From Pleionea litopenaei (GTDB lineage Bacteria; Pseudomonadota; Gammaproteobacteria; Enterobacterales; Kangiellaceae), in assembly GCF_031198435.1 (NCBI RefSeq), contig NZ_CP133548.1, positions 2,886,001-2,950,000 of the forward strand: a stretch of 64,000 nt of DNA. The letters run 5' to 3'. This document shows, in pieces, positions 48,262 to 64,000 of the stretch. The position numbers were made by a program, and so were the translations under genes. The notes under the pieces were generated by a model, which saw nothing but the letters and a program-made list of their open reading frames with translations, was not told where the DNA came from and did not search any database. Each line of letters starts with the position of its first letter. The first letter of the stretch is position 1.

Positions 48262-49692
48262 ATGTTTTTTGAACAAGAGAGGCGCGACTTTTTTCGCCCA
48301 TTTATCAGTAAGTATCGAGAACAAATAGCCGCTTGTTTGCAGTCACTTTATGAGCAATTGTATACGGTGCAAGCAGACTATGAATCGCTGAATACTCGTG
48401 AAAAAATCGTAGCTCTTTTTCAAGAAACGGTGACGCGCTCACCGGTTATTGATCAAGAAGACGATGATACCATGCCAGTAAAAAGCGACCGCGAGCAAGC
48501 TAACTGGGTGCTTAATTCGCTGATTGAATATGGCTGGCTCGAAAAACAAGTTGATGAAGCAACCTTGCAAAGTTCCTATGCATTCACTCGTGTCGGTCGA
48601 CTGTTCACCCAATCTTTAGTCGAAGCCAATGGTGCGGCCTATCGAACAAGACATCGTAATACAAGAAATGTTAGAAATGCCTTGAAAGTATTTGTCGACC
48701 AAGGTGATGTCTATGATCTGCTCGACGCATTTGAATACTCTGAACGAATCATTTCTGATTTTAGCGACACCATCGCAGAACTAGACGAGCGAAAACGAGA
48801 GCTTGTTCGCGAAGTGGAGTCTCAACAGTTGGTCGAAAAAGCCAGTGAAGAGTTCTTTCAATTTATGGAAAAGCGTTTTATGCCCGATCTGTCGATTCGA
48901 TTATCTGCAGATAGTGTTGAAAAGTGGCGCGATGAAATCCAAGACTCTATTAATAAAGCGCGGCGTAAGCGCAAAGAGTTTAAAGCGGATGCAGAGTCGA
49001 ATTTGAGAAAAGTCGCCCCTGAGCTTATTCAAAGTAATAGCCAATCGGTTTTTTTGACATTATTAGAGCGTATTGAACAAAGAATTCATCGAGCATCCGA
49101 AGTTATGCTGCCCGCCTTGCGGCAGTCATTGCACGGATTTACTCGTCGTGCCGATATCATCATGCGGCAGCTTTCTTTTTCTGCTCAAGGTCGGCAAAGT
49201 AGCATCGTTGATATTTGTCAAAAGTTAGCAAAGTTACCGACGCAAGAAATGGATAAAAAGTTAGAGTCCACTGGAGATATTCTTGCGCAGTTGCAGGTAG
49301 CCTTTTTTGACCCTCAACAGGTTAGACTTTTTCAGCGTCAAAGAAAGCGTATTGTCGATACTCGAGTTGAACAAGATACTGAAATGGATATGGAGTCACG
49401 TAAGGCGATGTATATACGCCAAACCGTTGAACGAGCTTTCGCCTTGTCAAATCAAGACATGGCTGAATACTTGGTCAAGTCACTCGGGAGCGGACATCGA
49501 ATATTTTCCCATCAATTACCAGTAAGTAGCGCAAGAGAACTTCTCATCCGAGCTCATGCGATTGAAGTTGCTTCAGCAGGACGTCAGTCCAGTGAATTTC
49601 AATTTAAAGTTGAACCCACCGGAATGCGCAAGAAAGATCAGTTTTTTGAAGCGGATGAGTTCGTGATAACTTTAGAAACGAAACAAGATTAA
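48262..49692 (+). CDS. mksF: Kleisin subunit MksF/JetA of an SMC-like complex
   Basis: The 476-aa protein fits the JetA/MksF kleisin family: N-terminal MFFEQERRDFFRPFISKY and a winged-helix-like segment (ANWVLNSLIEYGWLEKQVD), long helices in the middle and a C-terminal winged-helix-like end (EFQFKVEPTGMRKK). Kleisins bridge the heads of the SMC dimer. It is followed after 24 bp by MksE and then MksB, the standard gene order of MksBEF and Wadjet systems. Identity rests on length, gene order and recognisable family pattern. Confidence 0.85.
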   Translation: MFFEQERRDFFRPFISKYREQIAACLQSLYEQLYTVQADYESLNTREKIVALFQETVTRSPVIDQEDDDTMPVKSDREQANWVLNSLIEYGWLEKQVDEATLQSSYAFTRVGRLFTQSLVEANGAAYRTRHRNTRNVRNALKVFVDQGDVYDLLDAFEYSERIISDFSDTIAELDERKRELVREVESQQLVEKASEEFFQFMEKRFMPDLSIRLSADSVEKWRDEIQDSINKARRKRKEFKADAESNLRKVAPELIQSNSQSVFLTLLERIEQRIHRASEVMLPALRQSLHGFTRRADIIMRQLSFSAQGRQSSIVDICQKLAKLPTQEMDKKLESTGDILAQLQVAFFDPQQVRLFQRQRKRIVDTRVEQDTEMDMESRKAMYIRQTVERAFALSNQDMAEYLVKSLGSGHRIFSHQLPVSSARELLIRAHAIEVASAGRQSSEFQFKVEPTGMRKKDQFFEADEFVITLETKQD

Positions 49693-49716
49693 TATACGGC
49701 AGTATTAGAGTGAACT

Positions 49717-50412
49717 ATGATAATTTTTGATGCTATTGAACAACAACTTTCTCGATCAAAAGTAACTATAGAAGAGTTTCAAGAGCTCGTAATAAGATTG
49801 TTAAACTATGGCGTGCTAAGTCGTCAAGAAAGCGCCACCGAAGAGCTGCTTTATGATCGCTATGTCCGTATAGAAGAACTAATTAATGAGTACTTGGCCG
49901 TCATTAAAATTCGTCTCTATCATGATAATCACTTTCAATATGTGCGCTTATATCCGCCTTCTTCTGAAGTACCCGGAGTTGTCGATGGAGAAGACAGCCA
50001 GTTCACCGGTAGTCTTCGTCAGCGACTAACTCAAAATGAAGTCGCACTTACGCTTATCTTACGATTGCAATACGACAAAGCATTGCGTGAAGGTAAAATC
50101 GATGACTCAGGTTTTGCTCTAGAGTCATTGGAATCAATCTCAATTGCAATGAAAAATATGCTTAAGCGATCGCTACCTGATAAGTTTACTGAGCGAAAAA
50201 AGCTATTCTCAAAATTAAAACAACTTCGACTGATACAATTTCGACAAGATGAAGAATTCGAGAGTAGTGAAACATGGATTAAAGTCCATCCGATGATCGT
50301 AACCTTTGTTAGCGAAGAAGCGTTAGAGGCTTTAGATTTTGACGACGATGATGACGCGACAATTCATGTTCAATCACCTGCTCAAGTGACATTAGCAGTA
50401 GAAGAAGATTAG
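49717..50412 (+). CDS. mksE: KITE subunit MksE/JetB (DUF4194-like)
   Basis: The 231-aa protein matches the small winged-helix KITE subunit of MksBEF/JetABCD. Family features are LVIRLLNYGVLSRQE near the start, a conserved QRLTQNEVALTLILRLQYD region and ALESISIAMKNMLKR. It binds the kleisin and stabilises the SMC ring. The C-terminus is very acidic (FDDDDDA). It sits between the kleisin and SMC genes with 24- and 11-bp gaps. Confidence 0.87.
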   Translation: MIIFDAIEQQLSRSKVTIEEFQELVIRLLNYGVLSRQESATEELLYDRYVRIEELINEYLAVIKIRLYHDNHFQYVRLYPPSSEVPGVVDGEDSQFTGSLRQRLTQNEVALTLILRLQYDKALREGKIDDSGFALESLESISIAMKNMLKRSLPDKFTERKKLFSKLKQLRLIQFRQDEEFESSETWIKVHPMIVTFVSEEALEALDFDDDDDATIHVQSPAQVTLAVEED

Positions 50413-50423
50413 TAGGGGAATTC

Positions 50424-53400
50424 ATGTACTTAAAGAAATTAATATTGATAAACTGGGGTAACCTACCCAGCTCTGAGTTTGAATTTGGACCTTTAAATCT
50501 TTTCTCCGGTGGTAATGGCTCGGGAAAAACAACCGCAGCTGATGCAATTCAAACGCTAATGACAGCTGCACATGAAAATCTTTTTCAGTTTAATCCAGGT
50601 CAAGATGAAACAACTCAGCGTGGGCGTGGTGGTAAAAAGGTGCGAACATTAGCATCCTACATTCTAGGCTGTGATGATGGTTCTTATTCACGATTAAATC
50701 CTACCGATGGTTATATTGCAGGCATTTTTCACCCGACTGAAAATGAAGATTCAACACCTTTCGCTGCGGTTTTAGCTGTGCGCGCATTTGTCGAGAAATC
50801 GGGTCAAAACAAAGTCGCCAAACAGCAGAACTTACAGTTTTATATCTTAAATAATCAATTCGAAAAAAATGAACTCAGTATCGATGATTTGGTTCTTGAC
50901 CTAGGCAAGAGTAAGAGTATTTTAACTTTAGAAAATTGTTTTACTTCATTCATTCAGAAATTCGGAAATTCTAATGTCGAAAAGTACGATACTAAGAGAG
51001 CCTATCTAAGAAGGTTGTACGGTGCTTTTCGAGGGCGCAAAGATGCTGTCGCAGAAAATGAAGCCTTAAACAGTGCAAAGGCCTTTTCGCGTTTTATGGC
51101 GTACAAGCCAGTACAAAGTATCGATAAATTCGTTTCAGAAGAAATTTTAGAAAAGAAAGATTTGGGAGAAGCGATTCGCTCAATTTCAGGCCAGCTGAAG
51201 ACCATTCATGGAATGGAACGTGATGCTGCAAGGTTGATACAGTCCATTCAAATATTAACTCAGGCAAGAGAGCAGTCGAACGGCTACATCGATACATGGA
51301 GTGAAGCTCAGTACCAAGAGTTTGCGATTGCTCAACACGATTATTTGGCTCGTCAGCAACATTACATCGATAATAAAGATCAGCAAATTGACTGTGAAAA
51401 TAAAATTCAAGAACATCAGCACTCAATTGAAGTCACTCGAGAACGAAGAGAGCAACTGCATGAGCAACGAGTCTCTTTAGAAGCGCAGAGATTAGGCGTA
51501 ACCGCGCTGCAAGAAAAAGATGAACTTAGTAAAAAAGTTAAAGAACAAGAGTCACGTCTTGCTAAATTTGCGCAGGTATTATTACTGGAAGACAAACAGC
51601 TACAATCTTCGCAAAATTCTGCTAACCAAATCAGTGAGCTATTTAAAAATCCTTTATTGCTACAAGCAGCACCTGAATTGTTGCAAACCGACGCAAAATC
51701 TTCGCATAAGAAATTCTCAAGTTTTCTAAAAAAAGATGCGTTAGATATTCATGCCTTACTGGGCAAAGATTTAATGAATGATATTCAAATGCTTGAAAAG
51801 CAGTTGGATAACATTCGTGAGTTACAAGCTAAACAACATGACTGGATGAATTTTTGGACCCACAGTAAGCGTGAGCAACCGTCACTGCTTAAGCAACTCA
51901 ATACGCGACTTTCTCGACTAGAAATGGAGTATGAGAAAATTGCTCGAGATCGTTCGAGTAAGCAGAAGGAGATTGAACGACTTGATCAACTTCAGGTCAG
52001 TTACCCAGATTATGTTAAGCGAGCAATTGATGCGATCAGTAATGCGCTACCGCAAGCCGAGCCTCGTGTACTGTGTGATCACATTGAAGTCAATGATCCT
52101 GAATGGCAAGCGGCTGTTGAAGGCTATATGGGAGGTGCTCGTTTTTCTATTATTGTGGAGCCAGAATACGAGGCCGATGCCATTCGTATTATTCGAGGCT
52201 TACCAGGTCGGGCGAGCAAAGCTCGAATCATTCAAGGTGAAAAGGCCTATCGTGACGCTGACCGTTTAACCTTAGAAAAAGATTCGATCATTAACGTTCT
52301 TTCATTTACTCATGCAACGGCTAAAAATTATTTAGTGGCAAGCTATGGCGCTGTGTTATGTGTCGAAGATACAGAAACTTTGAAAATGACTCGTCGCGGT
52401 GTTACTAGAGACTGTTTAGCATCTGGAAATTACTCAATGTGGCGCTGTGATATGGAAGATTCCGATTTGGTATTCGGTATTGAAGCACGTAAACGAGCGA
52501 CCATTGCGAAGCAAGCTGAATTACAACGCTTAACTGACTCATGGCAAGTTATTAATGACAAAATTCAAGCCTTGTCAGAGTTAGTACGTCAAATAGAAAA
52601 AATTGACTTCTTGAACATAGCGGATGTCTTAGGACAAATGCTCGGATGCCATCGAGAATTGCAAAAGCTTGAAAATCTTATGCAGCAAATCGACTTAGGT
52701 GACCATCAGGAATTAGAGAACAAGCTTCAGGACTTTAAGCTCCAAGAAGAGAAGTTACGACAAGAAGAAGACTTTTTAATTAAGCAAATCGGTCAACTTG
52801 AAGAAAAGCTTCGTAATCTAAAAAAGAATATTAGCAAGATTGCCGATGAGCAAGACGCAACTCAATTACGAGTTGATCAGTGTGAATCAGCATTAAGAGC
52901 GATCAGTGAAATTTGGCCGGAAATTGATTTTGAAGCCAAGCTCGAGAAGGCTGAGAAAGAAGCAAAAGGCTTAGACCGAAAATTAGCGCAACAGCAATTA
53001 GAGTCTATGATGCAACAACTGCATGGTCATGAACGTAAGCTCGATGATTGCATTCGACAGCATAATCAAAATGCAATGCCTGGCGATGCTATCGCTTATG
53101 ATGTATTCAGTGGTGATTATAATATTCAATTGTTCAAAACCATTTGTTCAATACAACGACAAATGGACAGTATTTACAACCGTCTTAAAAATAACATTTT
53201 AGTTGAAAAGCATGGTCAATTAGGCAAGTTAAAAGAAAGCTTTAACAATGCGTTTGTTAGTAATTTATGTCACTCGATTCATCAGGCTATCAATGATGGT
53301 AAACGACAAATTGAACTGCTTAATCATGAATTACAGTTTCATAAATTCGGTGATGATCGTGAAACTTTCCGCTTTGATTTCGAGTGGTTACCAGAATACA

Positions 53401-54077
53401 AAGAATACTCTAAGTTCTTTCAAGAAATAATTCGCAATCCCGACCTAGGTGATGGCCAAACATTATTTGATGCTCAAATGAGTAAATCATCCCAACGAGT
53501 ACGAGATCGACTTATGTCGATGTTACTCGATGAAGATGAAGAAAAGGCATTGCGAGAACTTGACCGTATAGCCGATTATCGAAACTATCATCGATATGAA
53601 ATCTACAAAGAAGTTGAGGGCAAAACACCCATTGCGTTATCGGAATATGGTACTGGTTCAGGTGGTCAGTTAGAAACACCTGCCTATATTATTAGAGCAG
53701 CAGCGATCACTAGCGCCTTTAGGTTCAGTGAAGGGAAGTCGCATCTACGAATGGTGTTAGTGGATGAAGCATTTTCGAAAATGGATGAAACTCGTAGTCG
53801 CGAAGTTATTCAGTATTTAACCCAATCGCTGGGCTTACAGTTGGTATTTATTATGCCAACGAGTAAATGTGGACCCTATATGGATTTGATCACCAATGAA
53901 TTCGTCTATGCAAAGTGCCCAAGTAGTGTTCCGCGAGGAGAACTAAACACCCGAGTATTGGTCGATCGCAAGGTTTGTAATCAAGAGCAAATCAAAGCAC
54001 TCTGGGATTCACATCGCAATACGATTTATCAACAAGCTGAACTTGACTTTATGCAAAGCGTTGCAATGAGTGAATAA
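50424..54077 (+). CDS. mksB: SMC-like ATPase MksB/JetC
   Basis: The 1217-aa protein has SMC architecture. Head motif Walker A is FSGGNGSGKTT (residues 28-37). Two long coiled coils flank a hinge at about 530-690, where VLCDHIEVNDPEWQAAVEGY begins. The ABC signature is GTGSGGQ (about 1076-1082) and Walker B is MVLVDEAFSKMDE (D1114, E1115). Such complexes extrude DNA loops. Pseudomonas MksBEF aids chromosome organisation, while the related Wadjet JetABCD cuts plasmids with the nuclease JetD. Here no jetD follows; the operon ends at a terminator 20 bp downstream. Confidence 0.92.
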   Translation: MYLKKLILINWGNLPSSEFEFGPLNLFSGGNGSGKTTAADAIQTLMTAAHENLFQFNPGQDETTQRGRGGKKVRTLASYILGCDDGSYSRLNPTDGYIAGIFHPTENEDSTPFAAVLAVRAFVEKSGQNKVAKQQNLQFYILNNQFEKNELSIDDLVLDLGKSKSILTLENCFTSFIQKFGNSNVEKYDTKRAYLRRLYGAFRGRKDAVAENEALNSAKAFSRFMAYKPVQSIDKFVSEEILEKKDLGEAIRSISGQLKTIHGMERDAARLIQSIQILTQAREQSNGYIDTWSEAQYQEFAIAQHDYLARQQHYIDNKDQQIDCENKIQEHQHSIEVTRERREQLHEQRVSLEAQRLGVTALQEKDELSKKVKEQESRLAKFAQVLLLEDKQLQSSQNSANQISELFKNPLLLQAAPELLQTDAKSSHKKFSSFLKKDALDIHALLGKDLMNDIQMLEKQLDNIRELQAKQHDWMNFWTHSKREQPSLLKQLNTRLSRLEMEYEKIARDRSSKQKEIERLDQLQVSYPDYVKRAIDAISNALPQAEPRVLCDHIEVNDPEWQAAVEGYMGGARFSIIVEPEYEADAIRIIRGLPGRASKARIIQGEKAYRDADRLTLEKDSIINVLSFTHATAKNYLVASYGAVLCVEDTETLKMTRRGVTRDCLASGNYSMWRCDMEDSDLVFGIEARKRATIAKQAELQRLTDSWQVINDKIQALSELVRQIEKIDFLNIADVLGQMLGCHRELQKLENLMQQIDLGDHQELENKLQDFKLQEEKLRQEEDFLIKQIGQLEEKLRNLKKNISKIADEQDATQLRVDQCESALRAISEIWPEIDFEAKLEKAEKEAKGLDRKLAQQQLESMMQQLHGHERKLDDCIRQHNQNAMPGDAIAYDVFSGDYNIQLFKTICSIQRQMDSIYNRLKNNILVEKHGQLGKLKESFNNAFVSNLCHSIHQAINDGKRQIELLNHELQFHKFGDDRETFRFDFEWLPEYKEYSKFFQEIIRNPDLGDGQTLFDAQMSKSSQRVRDRLMSMLLDEDEEKALRELDRIADYRNYHRYEIYKEVEGKTPIALSEYGTGSGGQLETPAYIIRAAAITSAFRFSEGKSHLRMVLVDEAFSKMDETRSREVIQYLTQSLGLQLVFIMPTSKCGPYMDLITNEFVYAKCPSSVPRGELNTRVLVDRKVCNQEQIKALWDSHRNTIYQQAELDFMQSVAMSE

Positions 54078-55860: not shown

Positions 55861-56817
55861 ATGAAACAAGTATTCTTCGCGAAATTATCAGCTATCAAAG
55901 CAATTTTCATCGTGTCCGCATTTGCATTGATAACTGCTTGTAGCGGAGGTACCGCTGAGAGTGCTGGTACGGATAATGGTGGAAACACGCAACCGCCTAC
56001 CGGTACTCAACCGAATCAAGCGCCAAGTGTCGAGATCACGTCTAATCACAGTCAATCAGTCACCGATGCCCAAGCCGTCATGTTTATCGCAACGGCTTCT
56101 GATGCAGAAGATGGCGATTTAAGTTCTATCATCCAATGGCGCTCAAGCATTGACGGTAGCCTTGGTAATGGGGCTAGCGTTTCTATTATTTTAAGTGCCG
56201 GTGAGCATCAGGTGATCGCGACAGTACGTGACCAAGATGGCGAATCAGCTCAAGCGAGTGTTTATCAAGTTGTTGTGGCGGCCAATCAAATGCCTCAGCT
56301 GACATTGCTAGCGCCAACAAGCACGGATTCGTTTAATGATACACAAGCGATTACTTTTCAGGCACAAGCCATGGATGATTATGATGGTGACATCAGCGCT
56401 AACATTGAGTGGAGTTCTAACCTTGATGGTGTCTTTGGACAAGGTGCCGAGGTTTCTAGCACGCTTTCAGCGGGTACCCACGAAATCACTCTCAGAGTGA
56501 ATGATTCTGATGAACTAGTCGCCGAGCAATCATTCACGTTAGAGGTTGCTGCTACCTATGGCATCGCTACTGTATTTTGGACGGCTCCCACACAAAATAC
56601 CGACGATAGTGAACTGACGGATTTAGTTGGGTTTAAAGTTTATTATGGTGTTGATCAACAATCGTTAGATACCGTTGTTGAAGTGTTGGACCCACAAGCG
56701 AGCAGTGTCTTGATCGAACAATTGCCAGTGGGATCAACCTATTATTTTACAGTAACCGCAATAAATGAAATGGGTATTGAGAGTGATTGGTCTGCGGTTG
56801 CTTCGAAGACCCTGTGA
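55861..56817 (+). CDS. Lipoprotein with two PKD/REJ-like repeats and an FN3 domain
   Basis: The 318-aa protein has a lipoprotein signal with lipobox ITAC, a Gly/Thr/Pro-rich linker, two beta-sandwich repeats (about residues 50-140 and 145-230; QWRSSIDGSLGNGA and EWSSNLDGVFGQGA are equivalent), and a C-terminal fibronectin type III domain (VFWTAPTQNTDDSELTDLVGFKVYYG). It should sit at the outer membrane and may bind polysaccharide or surface partners. The next gene encodes a shorter paralogue. Confidence 0.82.
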   Translation: MKQVFFAKLSAIKAIFIVSAFALITACSGGTAESAGTDNGGNTQPPTGTQPNQAPSVEITSNHSQSVTDAQAVMFIATASDAEDGDLSSIIQWRSSIDGSLGNGASVSIILSAGEHQVIATVRDQDGESAQASVYQVVVAANQMPQLTLLAPTSTDSFNDTQAITFQAQAMDDYDGDISANIEWSSNLDGVFGQGAEVSSTLSAGTHEITLRVNDSDELVAEQSFTLEVAATYGIATVFWTAPTQNTDDSELTDLVGFKVYYGVDQQSLDTVVEVLDPQASSVLIEQLPVGSTYYFTVTAINEMGIESDWSAVASKTL

Positions 56818-56990
56818 ATTCATATCGGTAAAAAACCACTTGGGACGATGAATAGTGCACAGAAAAGCTGTCATGAAACTGTCGAATCTGTGCATTATGT
56901 TACAAAACGAGTAACAAACATTGTGCTTTGCTAGTGAAGTCTTTTAATATCAAAGCGCAAGTAGGAGAGTCATGGACAAGGTAGGTAGTA

Positions 56991-57644
56991 ATGGTCAGTC
57001 GCCCAATTGGGATAAGAAAAAATAAAACGAACGGATTATTGTTAATAGCTAGTGTTTTTTTTATAACTAGCTGTTCTAACGGTGAATCGGAAGCCGATAA
57101 TCGGGTAGAAAATCGACCTCCGGATATCAATATTTTATCACCGTCACCACAAATTCAAGCGAACGAACACGACCTTATCGATTTTCGCGCACGTGCCGAC
57201 GATTATGAAGACGGTGATTTGTCATCTCAAATCGAGTGGACGTCAGACTTACAAGGTGTGTTAGACGATGGCGCAAGTTTCGCGATGGAGCTAGATGCCG
57301 GAACTCATTTAATTACCGCAAGTGTAACGGACAGCGCCAATGCCAGTGTAGAACAGGCACTCAGAGTAGAAGTGGCTGAAGCGAACAGCAATGCAGCTGT
57401 ATTTTGGTCAGCGCCGACAGAAAATGTTGATAACACACCGTTAACTGATTTAATCGGATTTAAAGTCTATTATGGCAATGATCCTGAGCAACTTACGCGA
57501 TTTGTTGAAGTCAATGATCCGACCAGACTGTCGGTTGTGATAGAAAATTTAACGAATAATCAGCGTTATTATTTTGCCGTTACTGCGGTGAATAGTTTAG
57601 GCGTTGAGAGTGACTTTGCACCGCTGGTCAGTAAAGATACTTAA
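56991..57644 (+). CDS. Lipoprotein with one PKD/REJ-like repeat and an FN3 domain, paralogue of the preceding gene
   Basis: The 217-aa protein has a hydrophobic signal with lipobox ITSC, one beta-sandwich repeat (EDGDLSSQIEWTSDLQGVL is the same frame as in the neighbour) and the FN3 domain with VFWSAPTENVDNTPLTDLIG. It looks like a tandem duplicate that has one repeat less. The ATG at 56991 gives a basic n-region; a nearby TTG or GTG start is possible. It precedes the carrier-protein operon by 90 bp, but may not belong to it. Confidence 0.78.
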   Translation: MVSRPIGIRKNKTNGLLLIASVFFITSCSNGESEADNRVENRPPDINILSPSPQIQANEHDLIDFRARADDYEDGDLSSQIEWTSDLQGVLDDGASFAMELDAGTHLITASVTDSANASVEQALRVEVAEANSNAAVFWSAPTENVDNTPLTDLIGFKVYYGNDPEQLTRFVEVNDPTRLSVVIENLTNNQRYYFAVTAVNSLGVESDFAPLVSKDT

Positions 57645-57734: not shown

Positions 57735-57974
57735 ATGAATATCGAAAAAGTCAGGGAAATTTTATCCACTCATGGCCGACTAACGACTCCGGTAGACAGC
57801 TTGCAAGATGACAGTGATCTCTATCAAGCAGGTTTAACCTCTCTAGCCACCGTCGGTTTGATGTTAGCCCTTGAAGACGAATTTGACATTGAGTTTCCAG
57901 ACTCGGCGTTAAGTCGTAAAACCTTCGGCAGCATCGAGTCTATTGCAGAAACAGTCGAAGACTTACTCGAGTAG
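57735..57974 (+). CDS. Stand-alone acyl/aminoacyl carrier protein
   Basis: The 79-aa acidic helical protein is a phosphopantetheine carrier. The attachment Ser36 lies in DLYQAGLTSLATVGLMLALE, in the place of the usual DSL/TSL. It also has the typical helix III FDIEFPDSALS. It is the first gene of a run that includes an amino acid:carrier-protein ligase, so it is likely loaded with an amino acid rather than a fatty acid. In Bradyrhizobium such ligases work on dedicated carrier proteins encoded nearby. Confidence 0.92.
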   Translation: MNIEKVREILSTHGRLTTPVDSLQDDSDLYQAGLTSLATVGLMLALEDEFDIEFPDSALSRKTFGSIESIAETVEDLLE

Positions 57975-58002
57975 TGATAACAAATTTCAGGGAGTGAAAA
58001 CA

Positions 58003-59184
58003 ATGTCAAAAACGACCACCGTCACAGCAACAGAATTCGAGCAGCTAATTAAAGATGTTCATCGTATTGGGCAAGAAGTTGTTGCTCAACATGCTGAAGA
58101 CGTCGATAAAAATGCGCGCTTTCCCCGTGAAGGAATCGAAGCTTTAAAATCATTGAAGTTAATGAGTGCCTATGTACCTAAAGAACATGGTGGCATGGGC
58201 TTAGATTTGCGTCAGGTAAGCAAAGTGTGTGAGGTGCTAGGGCATTATTGTGGCTCAACCGCAATGGTCTATGCCATGCACAAAATCCAAGTCGCTTGTA
58301 TTGTTCACCATTGCATGGACGTTGACTACTTCAAAACTTATGTCGGTAAGCTAATCGACGAGCAACGTTTAATTGCTTCGGCGACGACCGAAATAGGAAT
58401 AGGCGGTGATCTTCTCTCTAGTTTCTGTGCCGTCGAAGCTCAGAACGGTCAATTTACCTTGACCAAGAAAGCGCCGGTCATTTCTTACGCTGAAGACGCT
58501 AACGACCTGATGCTTACGGCTCGACGCAATCCCGATGCTGCGAAAAGTGATCAAGTTGGCGTATTAGTCAGTAAAGATCAGTACGAGGTTGAAGCGATTT
58601 CCGACTGGGACACATTAGGGTTTCGTGGCACCTGCAGTTCTGGCTTTGTCGTCACTGCGAAAGCGTCAGAAAGCCAAATTTCACCAGTACCTTTCACCGA
58701 AGTACTGAGTCAAACGATGCATCCTTATTCTCATATTGTATGGGCAGCTCTTTGGTCTGGTATCGCCGCTTCAGCGGTGGCAAAGGCACGCATTTTTACT
58801 AAAAATGCGATGCGTAAAAATCCGAATATGCCACCTATTTCGTCGATTCGATTAGCGGAAGCAGAGACACAATTAAATATGATGCGAAATAATGTTTCGG
58901 CAGCGATCGATGAGTACACCGAGTTATTAGAACGTGGCGATAGCGATGCATTTAGCAATTTTGGTTTCACAATTCGAACCAACAACTTGAAAATCAATAG
59001 CTCTAAGCTTTTGATTGATATAGTTGGCCAAGCCATGATGATTTGTGGAATTGCCAGTTACAGAAATAATAATGACCTCTCACTCGCTCGTCATATTCGA
59101 GATGCTTATGGCGCGTCGTTGATGGTAAACAATGACCGAATTATGATGCACAATTCATCTTTGGTCGTTATGCATAAGGAGTAG
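58003..59184 (+). CDS. Acyl-CoA-dehydrogenase-like flavoprotein without the catalytic Glu
   Basis: The 393-aa protein (start ATG 58003, behind GGGAGTG; the longer frame from 57943 is rejected) has the acyl-CoA dehydrogenase fold: FPREGIEALKSLKLMSAYVPKEHGG, ATTEIGIGGD and the C-terminal ARHIRDAYGAS. At the position of the usual IYEGT motif it reads LMVNN, so the general-base Glu is Val. No Glu is seen at the alternative helix-G position either (YSHIVWAALWSG). The carrier-protein context suggests oxidation or other flavin chemistry on a carrier-bound aminoacyl group, as with prolyl-carrier dehydrogenases, but the chemistry is uncertain. Confidence 0.85.
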   Translation: MSKTTTVTATEFEQLIKDVHRIGQEVVAQHAEDVDKNARFPREGIEALKSLKLMSAYVPKEHGGMGLDLRQVSKVCEVLGHYCGSTAMVYAMHKIQVACIVHHCMDVDYFKTYVGKLIDEQRLIASATTEIGIGGDLLSSFCAVEAQNGQFTLTKKAPVISYAEDANDLMLTARRNPDAAKSDQVGVLVSKDQYEVEAISDWDTLGFRGTCSSGFVVTAKASESQISPVPFTEVLSQTMHPYSHIVWAALWSGIAASAVAKARIFTKNAMRKNPNMPPISSIRLAEAETQLNMMRNNVSAAIDEYTELLERGDSDAFSNFGFTIRTNNLKINSSKLLIDIVGQAMMICGIASYRNNNDLSLARHIRDAYGASLMVNNDRIMMHNSSLVVMHKE

Positions 59185-59188
59185 TGCA

Positions 59189-60118
59189 ATGTGTAATCTA
59201 CATGGAGAGTTACTTGAAGCTTACGACAATTATCGAAATGAATTGCTCGACGCTGGGTTATTACTAGGTTCAGGTGTCGAAGGTGTTTATGGTTTAAGTG
59301 GAACCTTTGAAGGCATCATTGAAGCATTTGAGCGTTACGTTACGCGTGAAGGTGCAGAGCTCAAGCCAGAGGTTATGAGGTTTCCACCGATTTTGAATCG
59401 AAAAACGTATTTATCGACAGATCATATTGAAACAATGCCGGATTTAATGGGCTCAATACATACGTTTAAAGGTACACAGCTAGAACAGCTCGAAATGATC
59501 GATAAAAAGAATAACGGAGAAGACTGGACCGTTAAATTGGCACCCGCTGATGTAATGATGGTTCCGGCTGCGTGTTACCCACTTTATCCTACCGCCGCTA
59601 ATACAGTTCTGCCTGAAGAGGGGCGCTTAGTTGATTTAAGAGCGTTTGTATTTCGTCATGAACCTTCGCCTGATCCTGCTAGAATGCAGATTTTCCGCCA
59701 AAGAGAGTATGTCCGGTTAGGTACGCCAGAACAAGCTCGGTCGCATCGCGATTACTGGTTGAACAAAGGGCAAGAGATGCTGAAAGCCATTGGCTTACCT
59801 GTTCAAGCGGAATTAGCGAATGATCCATTTTTTGGACGTGGTGGTCGTGTTATGGCTGCAACACAAAAAGAACAAGAACTGAAGTTTGAGTTAGTGGTAC
59901 CCGTTGCGACAGATAAGAAGTTAACCGCCATTTCATCAAGTAATTGCCATCTCGATCACTTTGGTAAAGAGTTTAATATTCAAACTCAAGATGGTAACCA
60001 TGCTCACACTGCTTGTATCGGTTTTGGATTAGAACGCATTACGTTAGCATTACTGAAAACTCATGGATTAGATCCTGAGAAATGGCCTGCGGAAGTTAAG
60101 CAAGTTCTGGATATCTAA
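59189..60118 (+). CDS. Amino acid:[carrier protein] ligase (class II aaRS-like)
   Basis: The 309-aa protein is a truncated relative of atypical seryl-tRNA synthetases that lacks the tRNA-binding arm. Class II motif 2 is FRHEPSPDPARMQIFRQREYVRLG (outline) and motif 3 is GFGLERITLALL. The Zn ligands C129 (AACYP), E173 (REYV) and C276 (TACIGFG) have the spacing known for Bradyrhizobium glycine:carrier-protein ligase. These enzymes activate Gly or Ala with ATP and load it on the phosphopantetheine of a carrier protein, not on tRNA. It lies 4 bp after the flavoprotein and 1 bp before DUF1839. Confidence 0.93.
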   Translation: MCNLHGELLEAYDNYRNELLDAGLLLGSGVEGVYGLSGTFEGIIEAFERYVTREGAELKPEVMRFPPILNRKTYLSTDHIETMPDLMGSIHTFKGTQLEQLEMIDKKNNGEDWTVKLAPADVMMVPAACYPLYPTAANTVLPEEGRLVDLRAFVFRHEPSPDPARMQIFRQREYVRLGTPEQARSHRDYWLNKGQEMLKAIGLPVQAELANDPFFGRGGRVMAATQKEQELKFELVVPVATDKKLTAISSSNCHLDHFGKEFNIQTQDGNHAHTACIGFGLERITLALLKTHGLDPEKWPAEVKQVLDI

Positions 60119-60119
60119 T

Positions 60120-61097
60120 ATGCTAAAAATTTTAGATATTCAGCCAGAATCTTATGTTCGACATAAGATTCACTTGCAAGAACGTGATTGGGCAGAAACT
60201 AACTGTTATGTCGATGTTTGGATTGAACTTTTGCATGCGCTAAAACTCGATCCCATGCCTGCGATGGCATTTTCGTTAACGCCTGATTTTGAAGGCGATC
60301 AGTGGACTTTTTTTAAATTTCAGTTAAATGACCTGTATGATCTTTACGGATTAGAAGTTCAAGAGCTCGTTATTTGGAAGTCATTATTAGAGAACTTGGC
60401 TGAGCAAGTCGCTATGGGACGACCAGTACTCGTTGAGCTAGACTCTATGTTTTTGCCTGACACTGCCGGTACTGCGTATCATGAAGCGCATGTAAAATCG
60501 ACCGTTGCAATCAACCTTCTCGATATAGAAAATAAACGCTTAGGGTATTTTCACGCGCAAGGCTATTATGAGCTAAGCGGTAATGATTTCGATGAAGTTT
60601 TCGCTTTACCAGAAGCTAATACAAAAATGGTGTTAGCCCCTTATGTTGAGTTCGTAAAGACTCATCAAATGGTAAAACGCAGTGACGACGAACTGCGAAG
60701 CATTGCGCGAAAAAAAGTCACTCGACAGCTTAAGCAACTTCCAGATACCAATCCATTTAAGAAGTTTCAACAAAGATTTGAGAAAGACTTTACTTGGTTA
60801 CTTGAACAGCCGACTGAAAAGTTTCATGAATACGCTTTTGTCACCTTTCGACAGTTTGGTGCATGTTTCGAAGTCGCGGCTAATTTTATTGAGTGGCTAG
60901 AAGGTAAAACTGAACACTCAAGTAAGTTAATCGAGCTTTACAAACATCTTTCTAACATCACCAAAGTTTATCAATTTCAATTAGCTCGAGCACTCGCGAG
61001 AAAGAAAATGGTAGATCTGAAAGTGTTTGATGAACTTGCGGCCACCTGGGAAGAAGCGCGTTCATTATTAATTGAATCCTTTTCTCAGTCGAATTAG
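60120..61097 (+). CDS. DUF1839 family protein, possible Cys acyltransferase
   Basis: The 325-aa cytoplasmic protein is a DUF1839-type protein found beside aminoacyl:carrier-protein ligases. The N-terminal half has a plausible papain-like set: C29 in ETNCYVDVW, H121/H124 in YHEAHVKSTVAI and D135 in LLDIENK. Also seen are GRPVLVELDSMFLPDT and GYFHAQGYYEL. This frame recalls BtrH_N-type proteins, in which a Cys moves an acyl group from a carrier protein to an amine. I infer, without proof, that it moves the aminoacyl group to an acceptor. The C-terminal half is helical. Confidence 0.8.
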   Translation: MLKILDIQPESYVRHKIHLQERDWAETNCYVDVWIELLHALKLDPMPAMAFSLTPDFEGDQWTFFKFQLNDLYDLYGLEVQELVIWKSLLENLAEQVAMGRPVLVELDSMFLPDTAGTAYHEAHVKSTVAINLLDIENKRLGYFHAQGYYELSGNDFDEVFALPEANTKMVLAPYVEFVKTHQMVKRSDDELRSIARKKVTRQLKQLPDTNPFKKFQQRFEKDFTWLLEQPTEKFHEYAFVTFRQFGACFEVAANFIEWLEGKTEHSSKLIELYKHLSNITKVYQFQLARALARKKMVDLKVFDELAATWEEARSLLIESFSQSN

Positions 61098-61108
61098 TAT
61101 TTTATAAA

Positions 61109-63580
61109 ATGGCGAAACCTCTCAACAATGGAGCTTGGCAGCTAACAATTTCTCCGGCGGGAGGTTGCCAAGAACCGACTGACTTATGCTCAAATGATGA
61201 GCGGAGTTTCCCATCTTTCACTCTCGATTCTATTAAACCTGTTTCGCAATTAATCAAAGAACTAGAACTGTCTGAAAAGTATCAAAATATTGATGCGTTT
61301 GATTGGTGGTTTACCACAAATGTTTCGTCGAACACCAATCACGACATTCATTTATTAAAGATGAATAAGTTAGCCAGTGTTTCGGAGGTTTGGATTGATT
61401 ACAATCGTATTCTAGTGTCTAACAATGCGTTTTTGAATCATCTATTGCCATTCAGTATGGTCAATGATGTTTGTAAAATTTCACTTTGTTTTCGCGGCCT
61501 TTCAACATTACTCAACCAAAAAATGCCACGTCCACGGTGGAAAACTAAGCTTGTTGAGCAACAACAACTTAGGTGGCTTAGAACGCCGTTGTTTGGAAGA
61601 ATAAAAAGTTGGACACCGCCATCGGTTAGAATGGGTCTGCTAGGTAGTATTGAACTGATCGAAGAGCTTGATATCGTTGACTATCAGATCGCTACAGAGC
61701 TGAAGGGATCAATAGGCATAGTTAAGTTTAAAGCTGAACTTGCGACCAAAAATCCGCATATTGATGCCAAGTTTACGGTTGGTAATCTAGCCACCGATTG
61801 CAAAGTGATTTCTGATAAAAATACTGTCTCAATTATTGCTGAGTTAGAAGTTTCGGAGCCTAAGCTTTGGTGGCCTCACACTCATGGTGAAGCAACGTTT
61901 TATCAAAGCAAAGTTGTTGTATCTAACAAAATTACTGATAAAGAAATTAAGCTACCCAACGTTAGTTTTAGACGTGTTGAGATCATTCAAGACAATAAAA
62001 ACTTCGAGTTTTTAATCAACGATGTTCCTATTTTTTGTCGTGGCGCCTGTTGGACAACGAATGACATTCTTTTAGGCAGCGAAGACGAAGAAAGTCTGCG
62101 AAAGCAATTACAACTATTGAGACAAAGCAATGCGAATATGGTTCGCATCATTGGGACTACCGAGTATCAATCTGAACGCTTCTATCAGCTGTGTGATGAA
62201 TTAGGTATTTTAGTTTGGCAAGATTTTATGTTTGCCAATATGGATTATCCAACCGACGATGAAAATTTCTTGGCCTCTATCACTCGAGAAGCAGAGCAAC
62301 AACTGCAGCGTCTATCCAAGTATTCTTCGGTCGTCATCTATTGTGGAAATAGTGAAGTCCAGCAACAAGTAAGAATGCTAGGCTTTGATGAGACATTTGC
62401 CAACAATAATTGGTTTGATGAAGTCTTGCCTCAATTGGTTAAAGAACACCATTCTCAAGCGGAATATATTCCATCGACACCTTTTGGTGGCGCGATGCCA
62501 TTTCATCTTGATGAAGGCGTGTCACATTACTATGGAATAGGCGCGTATCAACGACCTATCACAGAGTGTCGAAATCACAATGTAAAATTTGCGGCTGAGA
62601 CGTTAGGGTTTAGTCATATACCTTGTAGTTCAACCCTTCAAGAAATCTTTGGCGGCGACCTTCCTGTGGTGCATGATCCGCGTTGGAAGAATGGTACTCC
62701 GCGAGACAGTGGAACGGGTTGGGATTTTGACGACATCCGAGACTTTTATTTTGAGGCTTTAACGGGCCTATCAGTCAATGATTTGAGATACGCTGATCAT
62801 CAACGGTATTTACAGATTTCTGAGTTAATCTCAGGCGAGGTGATCACCCAAGTTTATAATGAGTGGCGCAGTCAGGCGAATTCAAATCAAGGTGGACTAG
62901 TTTGGTTTTTCCAAGACTTAAAATTAGGCGCTGGTTGGGGGCTAATTGATGCTAATAGTCAACCAAAAGCGGCTTACTTCGCAGCGAAACGAGCGTGGCA
63001 ATCTCCTCGAGTATTAATCACTGACGAGCAGTTTAAAGGCTTGAACGCTGAAGTGATTAATGAGTCACACAATAGTCTGAACGGTGTACTCAAAATAAAA
63101 GTCGTGGATAACCACGATCAAATTATTGTCGATAAAGAACTTTTGCTTTCTATCGAATCGAACAGTCGAAAGGTAGTCAATTTAGATGAAGTGATCGGTC
63201 ATTTTTATGATCTTAGTTACGTTTACCGATTTGGGCCGCTTAATCATAAAGTGGTCCATTGTGCATTTGTTAATAACGATGAGCTTATTTCGGAGTCTTT
63301 CTACTATCCTTCAAATTTACCTCTGTCAACGACTGAGGCAGATATTGATATTGTTGCGGAGTATGACAAGGCGCAACAATTGACGGTTACGATAACGAGC
63401 TCGAAATTTATTTATGGAGCGAAGATCGAAATTAAGGGTTTCGACCCTCAAGATAACTATTTTAATTTGATGCCAGATCAAGCAAAAACCATCAGATTAA
63501 ATTGTATCAGTGAAGCAAACACTGTAAGAGGATACCTTTCTGCTCCAGCAATGAATGAAGCAAAAAGAATAAAGCTTTAA
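61109..63580 (+). CDS. Cytoplasmic GH2 beta-mannosidase-like glycosidase
   Basis: The 823-aa protein has a GH2 layout: N-terminal jelly-roll, immunoglobulin-like domain, TIM barrel (about residues 300-640) and a C-terminal beta region. The two catalytic acids are conserved: E416 in IYCGNSEVQQ (acid/base, as in the GNNE motif of beta-mannosidases) and E498 in KFAAETLGFSH (nucleophile), 82 residues apart. There is no signal peptide, so it works in the cytoplasm. Its place in the carrier-protein operon suggests that the operon handles a sugar conjugate. Confidence 0.85.
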   Translation: MAKPLNNGAWQLTISPAGGCQEPTDLCSNDERSFPSFTLDSIKPVSQLIKELELSEKYQNIDAFDWWFTTNVSSNTNHDIHLLKMNKLASVSEVWIDYNRILVSNNAFLNHLLPFSMVNDVCKISLCFRGLSTLLNQKMPRPRWKTKLVEQQQLRWLRTPLFGRIKSWTPPSVRMGLLGSIELIEELDIVDYQIATELKGSIGIVKFKAELATKNPHIDAKFTVGNLATDCKVISDKNTVSIIAELEVSEPKLWWPHTHGEATFYQSKVVVSNKITDKEIKLPNVSFRRVEIIQDNKNFEFLINDVPIFCRGACWTTNDILLGSEDEESLRKQLQLLRQSNANMVRIIGTTEYQSERFYQLCDELGILVWQDFMFANMDYPTDDENFLASITREAEQQLQRLSKYSSVVIYCGNSEVQQQVRMLGFDETFANNNWFDEVLPQLVKEHHSQAEYIPSTPFGGAMPFHLDEGVSHYYGIGAYQRPITECRNHNVKFAAETLGFSHIPCSSTLQEIFGGDLPVVHDPRWKNGTPRDSGTGWDFDDIRDFYFEALTGLSVNDLRYADHQRYLQISELISGEVITQVYNEWRSQANSNQGGLVWFFQDLKLGAGWGLIDANSQPKAAYFAAKRAWQSPRVLITDEQFKGLNAEVINESHNSLNGVLKIKVVDNHDQIIVDKELLLSIESNSRKVVNLDEVIGHFYDLSYVYRFGPLNHKVVHCAFVNNDELISESFYYPSNLPLSTTEADIDIVAEYDKAQQLTVTITSSKFIYGAKIEIKGFDPQDNYFNLMPDQAKTIRLNCISEANTVRGYLSAPAMNEAKRIKL

Positions 63581-63602
63581 TTAATATTGGAATAATTTTG
63601 TA

Positions 63603-64000
63603 ATGGAAGACAATTCTATTCACCAAAGAACTTCAACTTATTTTGGGAGTGAGCAGCGCCCTCTATTTGGCTGGTTGCATACACCAAAATCTGAACATAA
63701 GAAAGACACTTGTGTCGTAATATGTTATCCGTTAGCACTTGAATACATGAGTGCCTATCGAAGTATGCGCTATCTCGCAGAGCATTTGGCCTCGGAAGGG
63801 TTTCCAACGTTACGATTCGACTACTTTGGAACGGGTGATTCCGGTGGTTACACAGAAGATGATGCAACGATCGACTATGCGATTGAAAGTATCAAGGACG
63901 CTGTTAGCTACGCAAAACAGATGAGTGGTTGTGAAAAAGTAGCCTTAATTGGCTTGCGGTTAGGTGCTACATTTGCCTCGCTTTACGCTGAGAACAACCC
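63603..64000 (+). CDS. Alpha/beta-hydrolase-fold protein, exosortase-A-associated type, partial
   Basis: The first 132 codons are in the window; the 3' end lies outside. The protein begins MEDNSIHQRTSTYFG and has the oxyanion region VICYPLALEYMSAYRS and FDYFGTGDS. At the nucleophile elbow GxSxG it reads GLRLG, with Arg119 in place of Ser. That variant is familiar from exosortase-A-associated hydrolase-like proteins. It is 22 bp after the GH2 gene. Ordinary serine-hydrolase activity is not expected. Confidence 0.8.
   Translation, partial: MEDNSIHQRTSTYFGSEQRPLFGWLHTPKSEHKKDTCVVICYPLALEYMSAYRSMRYLAEHLASEGFPTLRFDYFGTGDSGGYTEDDATIDYAIESIKDAVSYAKQMSGCEKVALIGLRLGATFASLYAENN

Follow-up and report, generated by a model that had tools for sequence, protein, structure and literature searches.

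A widely shared carrier-protein gene cassette in Pleionea litopenaei that may couple a small amino acid to an amine

The window analysed here is a stretch of 64,000 nucleotides from Pleionea litopenaei (NCBI RefSeq assembly GCF_031198435.1, contig NZ_CP133548.1, positions 2,886,001 to 2,950,000 of the forward strand; host genome 4.42 Mb). At its right end lies a row of genes for a carrier protein (CP), a flavoprotein with the acyl-CoA dehydrogenase (ACAD) fold, an amino acid:carrier protein ligase, a DUF1839 protein, a GH2 enzyme and a tandem alpha/beta-hydrolase. The first five recur in one order and on one strand in many bacteria, and we give somewhat better than even chances to the scheme as a whole, in which a self-contained, widely shared cassette couples a small amino acid to an amine. 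The acceptor might, at about even chances, be an amino sugar of a polyprenyl-linked surface polysaccharide or exopolysaccharide (EPS); we infer the oxidation step, the trimming step and the nature of the product. An earlier note, made from the letters of the window, had read the row as an operon for an aminoacyl-modified small molecule or glycan. Its observation is confirmed and its interpretation partly supported.

All six genes were found on the + strand at the places given in the earlier note, separated by 28, 4, 1, 11 and 22 bp. When profile models of the six proteins were mapped on 46 loci, the order CP, ACAD, ligase, DUF1839, GH2, on one strand, was seen in 36, which is 36 of the 39 DUF1839-bearing loci; these 36 include many close relatives and are not 36 independent cases. 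Their hosts are Pleionea-like gammaproteobacteria, Burkholderia, Cupriavidus, Caballeronia and Mycetohabitans, Rhizobium, Azospirillum, Methylobacterium and relatives, and Patulibacter (Actinomycetota). Among the ten exceptions, a ligase relative without DUF1839 is present in seven (L045, L046, L049, L050, L051, L059 and L079), L060 starts at a contig end and hence lacks the CP, L062 is a cassette without ligase, and L063 is a second DUF1839 from a genome that has its cassette at L072. In 18 of the 36, the first gene of a cassette family to follow GH2 on the same strand is the hydrolase, though the two need not adjoin; in the remainder the hydrolase lies on the opposite strand, is cut off or was not found.

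In a second survey, the ligase Bll0957 of Bradyrhizobium was used as query against 297 genomes of the order of G402. There were 71 matches, of which nine were already in hand, four weak ones were left out and 58 were added. DUF1839 is present in 39 of the 58 and GH2 in 38 of these; in the remaining one, L169, the row is interrupted where the stretch ends. Accidental linkage of the cassette genes was ruled out by the fixed gene order in both surveys. Among 369 genomes of the same class DUF1839 occurs in 4 and a ligase over cut-off in 4, with 3 in common, and among 398 of the same phylum DUF1839 occurs in 16, of which the 15 other than G000 all have a ligase relative. Of 72,556 plasmid records, 59 carry DUF1839 (19 were examined) and 94 the ligase (60 among the matches listed). 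The closest named relatives in the ligase search were a gammaproteobacterial metagenome-assembled genome (92%) and two Pleionea species (86%).

The CP (57735..57974, +; 79 aa) carries the phosphopantetheine site Ser36 reported earlier, which is kept in 83/83 aligned homologues, and it scores 37.7 bits with PF00550 and 109 bits with NF005480 (cut-off 72). The cispentacin acyl carrier protein (ACP) model gave 36 bits, below its cut-off of 80, and the Patulibacter CP carries a fused AcpS domain. Two genes downstream lies the ligase (59189..60118, +), which resembles class II aminoacyl-tRNA synthetases (aaRS) and exceeds the cut-off of NF005479 (433.7 bits against 357). Its predicted Zn site was given correctly as C129/E173/C276, and the residues are C/E/C in 96/96 aligned ligases. 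The nearest solved relative is Bll0957 (3mey/4h2w; 245 bits). Loading of an amino acid onto a CP is the established function of such relatives, so that the loading step proposed earlier rests on true family membership; to our knowledge, the natural role of these ligases has been described as unclear. By homology, the cassette ligase would load Gly or Ala. At a Priestia locus (L045) the CP, ACAD and ligase genes have acpS, ATP-grasp enzymes and both a permease and a racemase for alanine as neighbours, a hint that the amino acid loaded there is alanine.

The DUF1839 gene (60120..61097, +; PF08893 362 bits, cut-off 22.5) encodes a papain-like protein with Cys29, Thr128 and His145. Its predicted structure matches CcbD, AziU3 and CtaG over the full length, the helical C-terminal domain included; CcbD is the best match, with 11-13% identity in those alignments. 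The profile found no match among PDB sequences apart from one chance-level row. Cys29 and Thr128 are each present in 84/87 aligned DUF1839 proteins and His145 in 87/87, as counted in a sequence alignment. By their conservation, R290 (86/87, one gap; in a predicted helix, 265-293) and R294 (79/87, just past the helix) are candidate basic residues for docking of the CP near the C-terminus. Given this fold and conservation, DUF1839 is quite probably a CP-dependent amide-forming enzyme, and the transfer step suggested in the earlier note draws support from the same match. Because the fold is of the CcbD type, the combination of loading and transfer is strengthened.

In the open-access literature searched, DUF1839 is mentioned in one paper. 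PMC10318531 proposes, from genomic context, that it acts on cell-wall glycans as a processing peptidase or amidase, and describes a C-(T/S)-H triad in which His and the third residue have changed places. The trio of CP, ligase and flavoprotein would then be separate from it. Peptidases score far lower against DUF1839 than CcbD, AziU3 and CtaG do, and align only within about residues 1-184, whereas those three match throughout; the protein has no signal peptide by eye and keeps a fixed place beside the CP and ligase genes. We therefore regard a peptidase role as very improbable.

In three Cupriavidus-type genomes, the in-cassette DUF1839 (L048:16732-17712, L064:6401-7378, L072:9435-10418) has Arg or Gln for Cys29 and Cys for Thr128. 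Each of these genomes has a second copy with Cys29, and the in-cassette protein could be either a dead partner subunit or one with a moved nucleophile. Solitary Cys-bearing DUF1839 genes occur on three Rhizobium plasmids (L080-L082). Two of these stretches have no annotated ligase gene and the third record is without any annotation; in the latter, an upstream frame resembles, by eye, alternate-frame ligase sequence. We read the solitary genes as remnants.

The flavoprotein gene (58003..59184 from the ATG at 58003, +) has an in-frame GTG at 57994, from which residue numbers are counted. The protein scores 57.7 bits with PF02771 (Acyl-CoA_dh_N; cut-off 22.9), and in PDB its profile matches ACADs best (93 bits), followed by nitrososynthases at about 77 bits. 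The catalytic Glu of ACADs (YEGT position) is I or V in 97/97 aligned homologues, so ordinary acyl dehydrogenation is unlikely. A second Glu position, which we take to be the isovaleryl-type (IVD) alternative in ACADs, is also without Glu in the window protein. Possibly, judging from these residues, the flavoprotein is a monooxygenase- or oxidase-like enzyme.

Not all relatives of the ligase are found in such a cassette. Among the 58 added loci, 4 are weak ligase relatives alone, leaving 54 strong ones, and 15 have ACAD and ligase without DUF1839 or GH2; 12 of the 15 have a divergent CP. These 15 group with Bll0957 (62-96% identity, five at 94-96%). Two system types therefore exist, type I with DUF1839 and GH2 and type II without. 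A gene that resembles, by eye, a GNAT acyltransferase is found in 10 of the 15 type II loci, directly after the ligase in L134-L138 and 6.6 kb off in L139. The earlier note had held that ligase/CP pairs standing apart from the other four genes would make the linkage accidental. Here the outcome is mixed. Ligase loci without DUF1839 and GH2 do exist (the 15 of 54, and Priestia, Tsukamurella and G260); on the other side, among the loci examined, DUF1839 outside a cassette is limited to extra copies (L048, L063, L064) and the solitary genes on the three Rhizobium plasmids.

Type II loci and Priestia, with ACAD, ligase and mostly a CP, raise the alternative that these three genes are the functional unit and that DUF1839, GH2 and the hydrolase are lineage-specific additions leading to different products. 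Where present, however, DUF1839 and GH2 stand in the same order in three classes of proteobacteria and in an actinobacterium, and three cassettes retain both without the ligase. In a quick tree built from 103 ligases, with long branches, possession of DUF1839 requires 3 changes against 24.1 in shuffles. We consider this modular reading rather unlikely. Transfer of the biology of Bll0957 to the cassette wholesale was rejected, since its close relatives are without DUF1839 and GH2.

The GH2 gene (61109..63580, +; PF02836, Glyco_hydro_2_C, 30.8 bits, cut-off 21) encodes a beta-mannosidase-like protein whose profile matches 5n6u, a beta-mannosidase, best in PDB (360 bits) and 2je8 at 318 bits, both full-length. 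The two catalytic carboxylates, acid/base and nucleophile, are Glu416 and Glu497: position 416 is Glu in 75 and Asp in 4 of 79 aligned proteins, and Glu497 is present in 78/79, the remaining row being gapped. There is no signal peptide by eye. The GWDWG stretch seen in solved beta-mannosidases has no counterpart in the profile alignment, and the cassette enzyme may therefore act on another sugar. In both surveys GH2 was found only in loci with DUF1839 and never in ligase loci without it; its step is thus probably tied to the product or acceptor of DUF1839.

The tandem hydrolase (63603..65426, +; 607 aa) has only 63603..64000 in the window; coordinates above 64000 continue the same numbering in sequence extended to the right. 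It is a relative of TIGR03100 and TIGR03101 that stays below both cut-offs (149.8 bits against 168.45 and 88.6 against 202.75), and sequence search leads to ordinary alpha/beta-hydrolases. At the nucleophile position of the N-terminal half, 54 aligned proteins have Arg (29), Gly (24) or Lys (1) and never Ser. In the C-terminal half, 52 proteins have a Cys nucleophile and 2 a Ser, the first copy of the window genome being among the latter, and His581 is present in 54/54. The term pseudo-hydrolase in the earlier note therefore suits the N-terminal half and not the C-terminal half, where the window copy has a nucleophile elbow, Asp548 and His581. In Rhizobium NLR16a the tandem hydrolase is fused behind a Polysacc_synt_3 (Wzx-type) domain.

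The operon runs past the right edge of the window, as had been anticipated along with glycan genes: the gene row continues to 70979 and is followed, to about 94900 by eye, by an EPS locus with glycosyltransferases and a polysaccharide deacetylase. Its FemAB protein (352 bits, cut-off 260) and deacetylase (389 bits, 276) exceed XrtA-type cut-offs, whereas an asparagine-synthase-like amidotransferase (533 bits, XrtA cut-off 817) and an O-antigen-ligase-like protein (108 bits, 188) fall below. In the genus, DUF1839 occurs in 4/5 genomes and EPS marker DNA in the same 4, at 23-27 kb from DUF1839 on the same contig in three of the four; the fifth genome, 95% complete, has neither. Elsewhere, a sugar-transferase gene (family f289) directly follows the hydrolase in 11 of 12 loci of one genus, the twelfth (L179) ending inside GH2, and in 3 Cupriavidus-type loci one stands ahead of the CP. 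Five of these sugar-transferase genes, tested by Pfam, gave 225-236 bits with Bac_transf. The EPS locus, the sugar transferases and the Wzx-type fusion in other lineages together support the glycan link drawn in the earlier note.

Several results weigh against the proposed coupling of an amino acid to a glycan amine. Some concern the machinery itself. Distances among CPs correlate weakly with those among ligases (0.39; permutation maximum 0.26) and among GH2 proteins (0.27; permutation maximum 0.24), and the three gammaproteobacterial cassettes L062, L094 and L095 lack a ligase between ACAD and DUF1839. The chemistry of the swapped DUF1839 triad may differ from that of the usual triad, the model has pLDDT below 50 just before Cys29, AziU3 of the same fold family has a different reaction, and the assayed ligase, Bll0957, belongs to the type without DUF1839 and GH2. 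Others concern the glycan. In a crude search, biased in that several of its 15 queries were taken from these loci, a polysaccharide-type gene was seen in 31/77 type I and 2/15 type II stretches. No glycan-assembly gene is annotated next to the plasmid cassettes of Azospirillum ramasamyi, Phyllobacterium and Caballeronia Sq4a, and on three bean-rhizobium plasmids (L056, L192, L193), typed as conjugative, the cassette lies directly behind nif...fdxB, with a gene annotated as exopolysaccharide production repressor in between.

These plasmid cassettes, with or without nif genes, would suit a different product, a diffusible small molecule such as a lincosamide- or butirosin-like aminoacyl amino-sugar or amide, in which GH2 unmasks a glycosylated precursor and glycan genes are a frequent, dispensable setting. 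CcbD comes from an antibiotic pathway and CtaG belongs to that of closthioamide, which would fit as well. Such a molecule is nonetheless doubtful: no neighbouring gene general to the cassette was found, the widest cluster (9/46 loci) being of a common ABC-transporter ATPase type; no exporter or resistance gene accompanies it at a fixed place; and an initiating-type sugar transferase stands in the gene row in two unrelated arrangements, besides the Wzx-type fusion and the EPS linkage within the genus.

In the coupling scheme that we prefer, the ligase would activate the amino acid with ATP and load it onto the phosphopantetheine of the CP encoded at 57735. The flavoprotein might then act on the CP-bound amino acid, hydroxylation or N-oxidation being likelier than alpha,beta-dehydrogenation. 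Cys29 of DUF1839 would take the acyl group and pass it to the amine of the acceptor, giving an amide as CcbD does, a step supported by the fold and by residue conservation. GH2 may trim or release a glycoside tied to this transfer, with which it is placed because it is found only in DUF1839 loci. The tandem hydrolase could serve as thioesterase or acyltransferase near the flippase or lipid-linked stage, as its Wzx-type fusion in a Rhizobium suggests. More tentatively, and at rather less than even chances, the genes might constitute a new CP-based route for aminoacylation of polyprenyl-linked sugars, in which the loader is an aaRS-derived ligase, the flavoprotein turns CP-bound glycine or alanine into a new acyl group, and a CcbD-like transfer to an amino sugar precedes flipping. 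Such a route would be common to bacteria of soil and sea, symbionts of plants and an actinobacterium, and hitherto undescribed in the open-access literature searched.

If the scheme is true, a ligase family of unclear purpose acquires a natural job, as one fixed cassette is tied to 39 of the 54 strong relatives in the second survey and to the majority in the first, and DUF1839 gains a specific, testable reaction. Many bacteria, root-nodule symbionts included, would then be candidates for making aminoacylated glycans or amino-sugar conjugates. Caution is due in that the transfer enzyme is absent from the related system to which the one solved ligase belongs.

Beyond the tandem hydrolase, the row holds genes on the same strand without real gaps: a formyltransferase-like gene (65413-66384; PF00551 79 bits), a second tandem hydrolase (66381-68126), an acyltransferase-3 (68133-69269), an SGNH/GDSL gene (69269-69928) and a second acyltransferase-3 (69933-70979), all to the right of the window and on the + strand. 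The ten gaps from the CP to the last acyltransferase-3 gene are thus the five listed above, followed by -14, -4, 6, -1 and 4 bp. Upstream of the cassette, two genes at 55861-57644 encode PKD/fibronectin-III proteins that begin like lipoproteins; similar genes also precede the cassette in L005-L008 and, by eye, in L094. Three genes at 48262-54077 (476, 231 and 1217 aa) resemble, by eye, a MukBEF/Mks-type SMC (structural maintenance of chromosomes) complex.

Other cassettes have neighbours of their own. Upstream of that in L009 (1425-6364) lies a parallel module made up of an amino acid adenylation domain (355 bits, cut-off 317), an ACP, an ACAD and a pair of XrtA-type hydrolases; a single gene on the opposite strand separates it from the cassette. 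AMP-binding enzyme, ACP and amidotransferase genes (by eye) stand just upstream of the ligase-less cassette of L094. In Rhizobium NLR16a (L041:6537-9363), genes for EF-P, EpmA and a lysine-2,3-aminomutase-like protein lie just upstream, and EpmA-like genes also occur in L065, L067, L069 and L071. In L193 an ACC deaminase gene follows the cassette; in L192 no GH2 is annotated.

Among known systems, Bll0957 belongs to the same curated family as the cassette ligase, with the Zn residues conserved, a CP in the locus and an ACAD gene beside it; a table of PMC10888616 gives the adjacent bll0958 as an acyl-CoA dehydrogenase. It differs in that its five closest genomes (94-96%) are without DUF1839, GH2 and hydrolase in the stretch and have a CP that is farther off and divergently transcribed, whereas the Pleionea ligase stands third in a cassette of five to six genes. 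The XrtA system shares relatives of TIGR03101 and TIGR03100, in tandem in our hydrolase, and XrtA-type FemAB and deacetylase in the EPS locus. Unlike that system, the cassette has a hydrolase below cut-offs and, in addition, an aaRS-like ligase, DUF1839 and GH2. The exosortase system proper was rejected, as PF09721 found no exosortase in the host genome; the exosortase guessed in the earlier note is thus missing, although XrtA-type EPS genes are present. Haft 2006 (PMC1569441), searched by terms for accessory genes, yielded no passage. Identity with the c-di-GMP-controlled bep cluster of Burkholderia cenocepacia was dropped, since none of the terms looked for, acyl carrier and acyl-CoA dehydrogenase among them, occurs in PMC3584217; acyl carrier and mannosidase are also absent from PMC9684580.

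The GH2 beta-mannosidases 5n6u and 2je8 resemble the cassette enzyme in the full-length match and both catalytic carboxylates, and differ from it in that the latter is part of a biosynthetic operon, has no signal peptide by eye and does not keep GWDWG. With CtaG (closthioamide) and BtrH (butirosin), comparison has to take account of the lack of a PDB sequence match for DUF1839. A further known system is the lincosamide synthetase (LmbC/CcbC, CP, LmbD/CcbD). Its loader is a nonribosomal peptide synthetase (NRPS) A-domain, whereas that of the cassette is a class-II-aaRS-like ligase, and the cassette adds a flavoprotein, GH2 and the tandem hydrolase and has mostly proteobacterial hosts. In both, one amino acid is placed, or in the cassette would be placed, on a CP, after which a CcbD-type enzyme forms an amide; CcbD itself, according to PMC12945683 and PMC4351081, makes it from CP-bound proline and an amino-octose in an antibiotic pathway.
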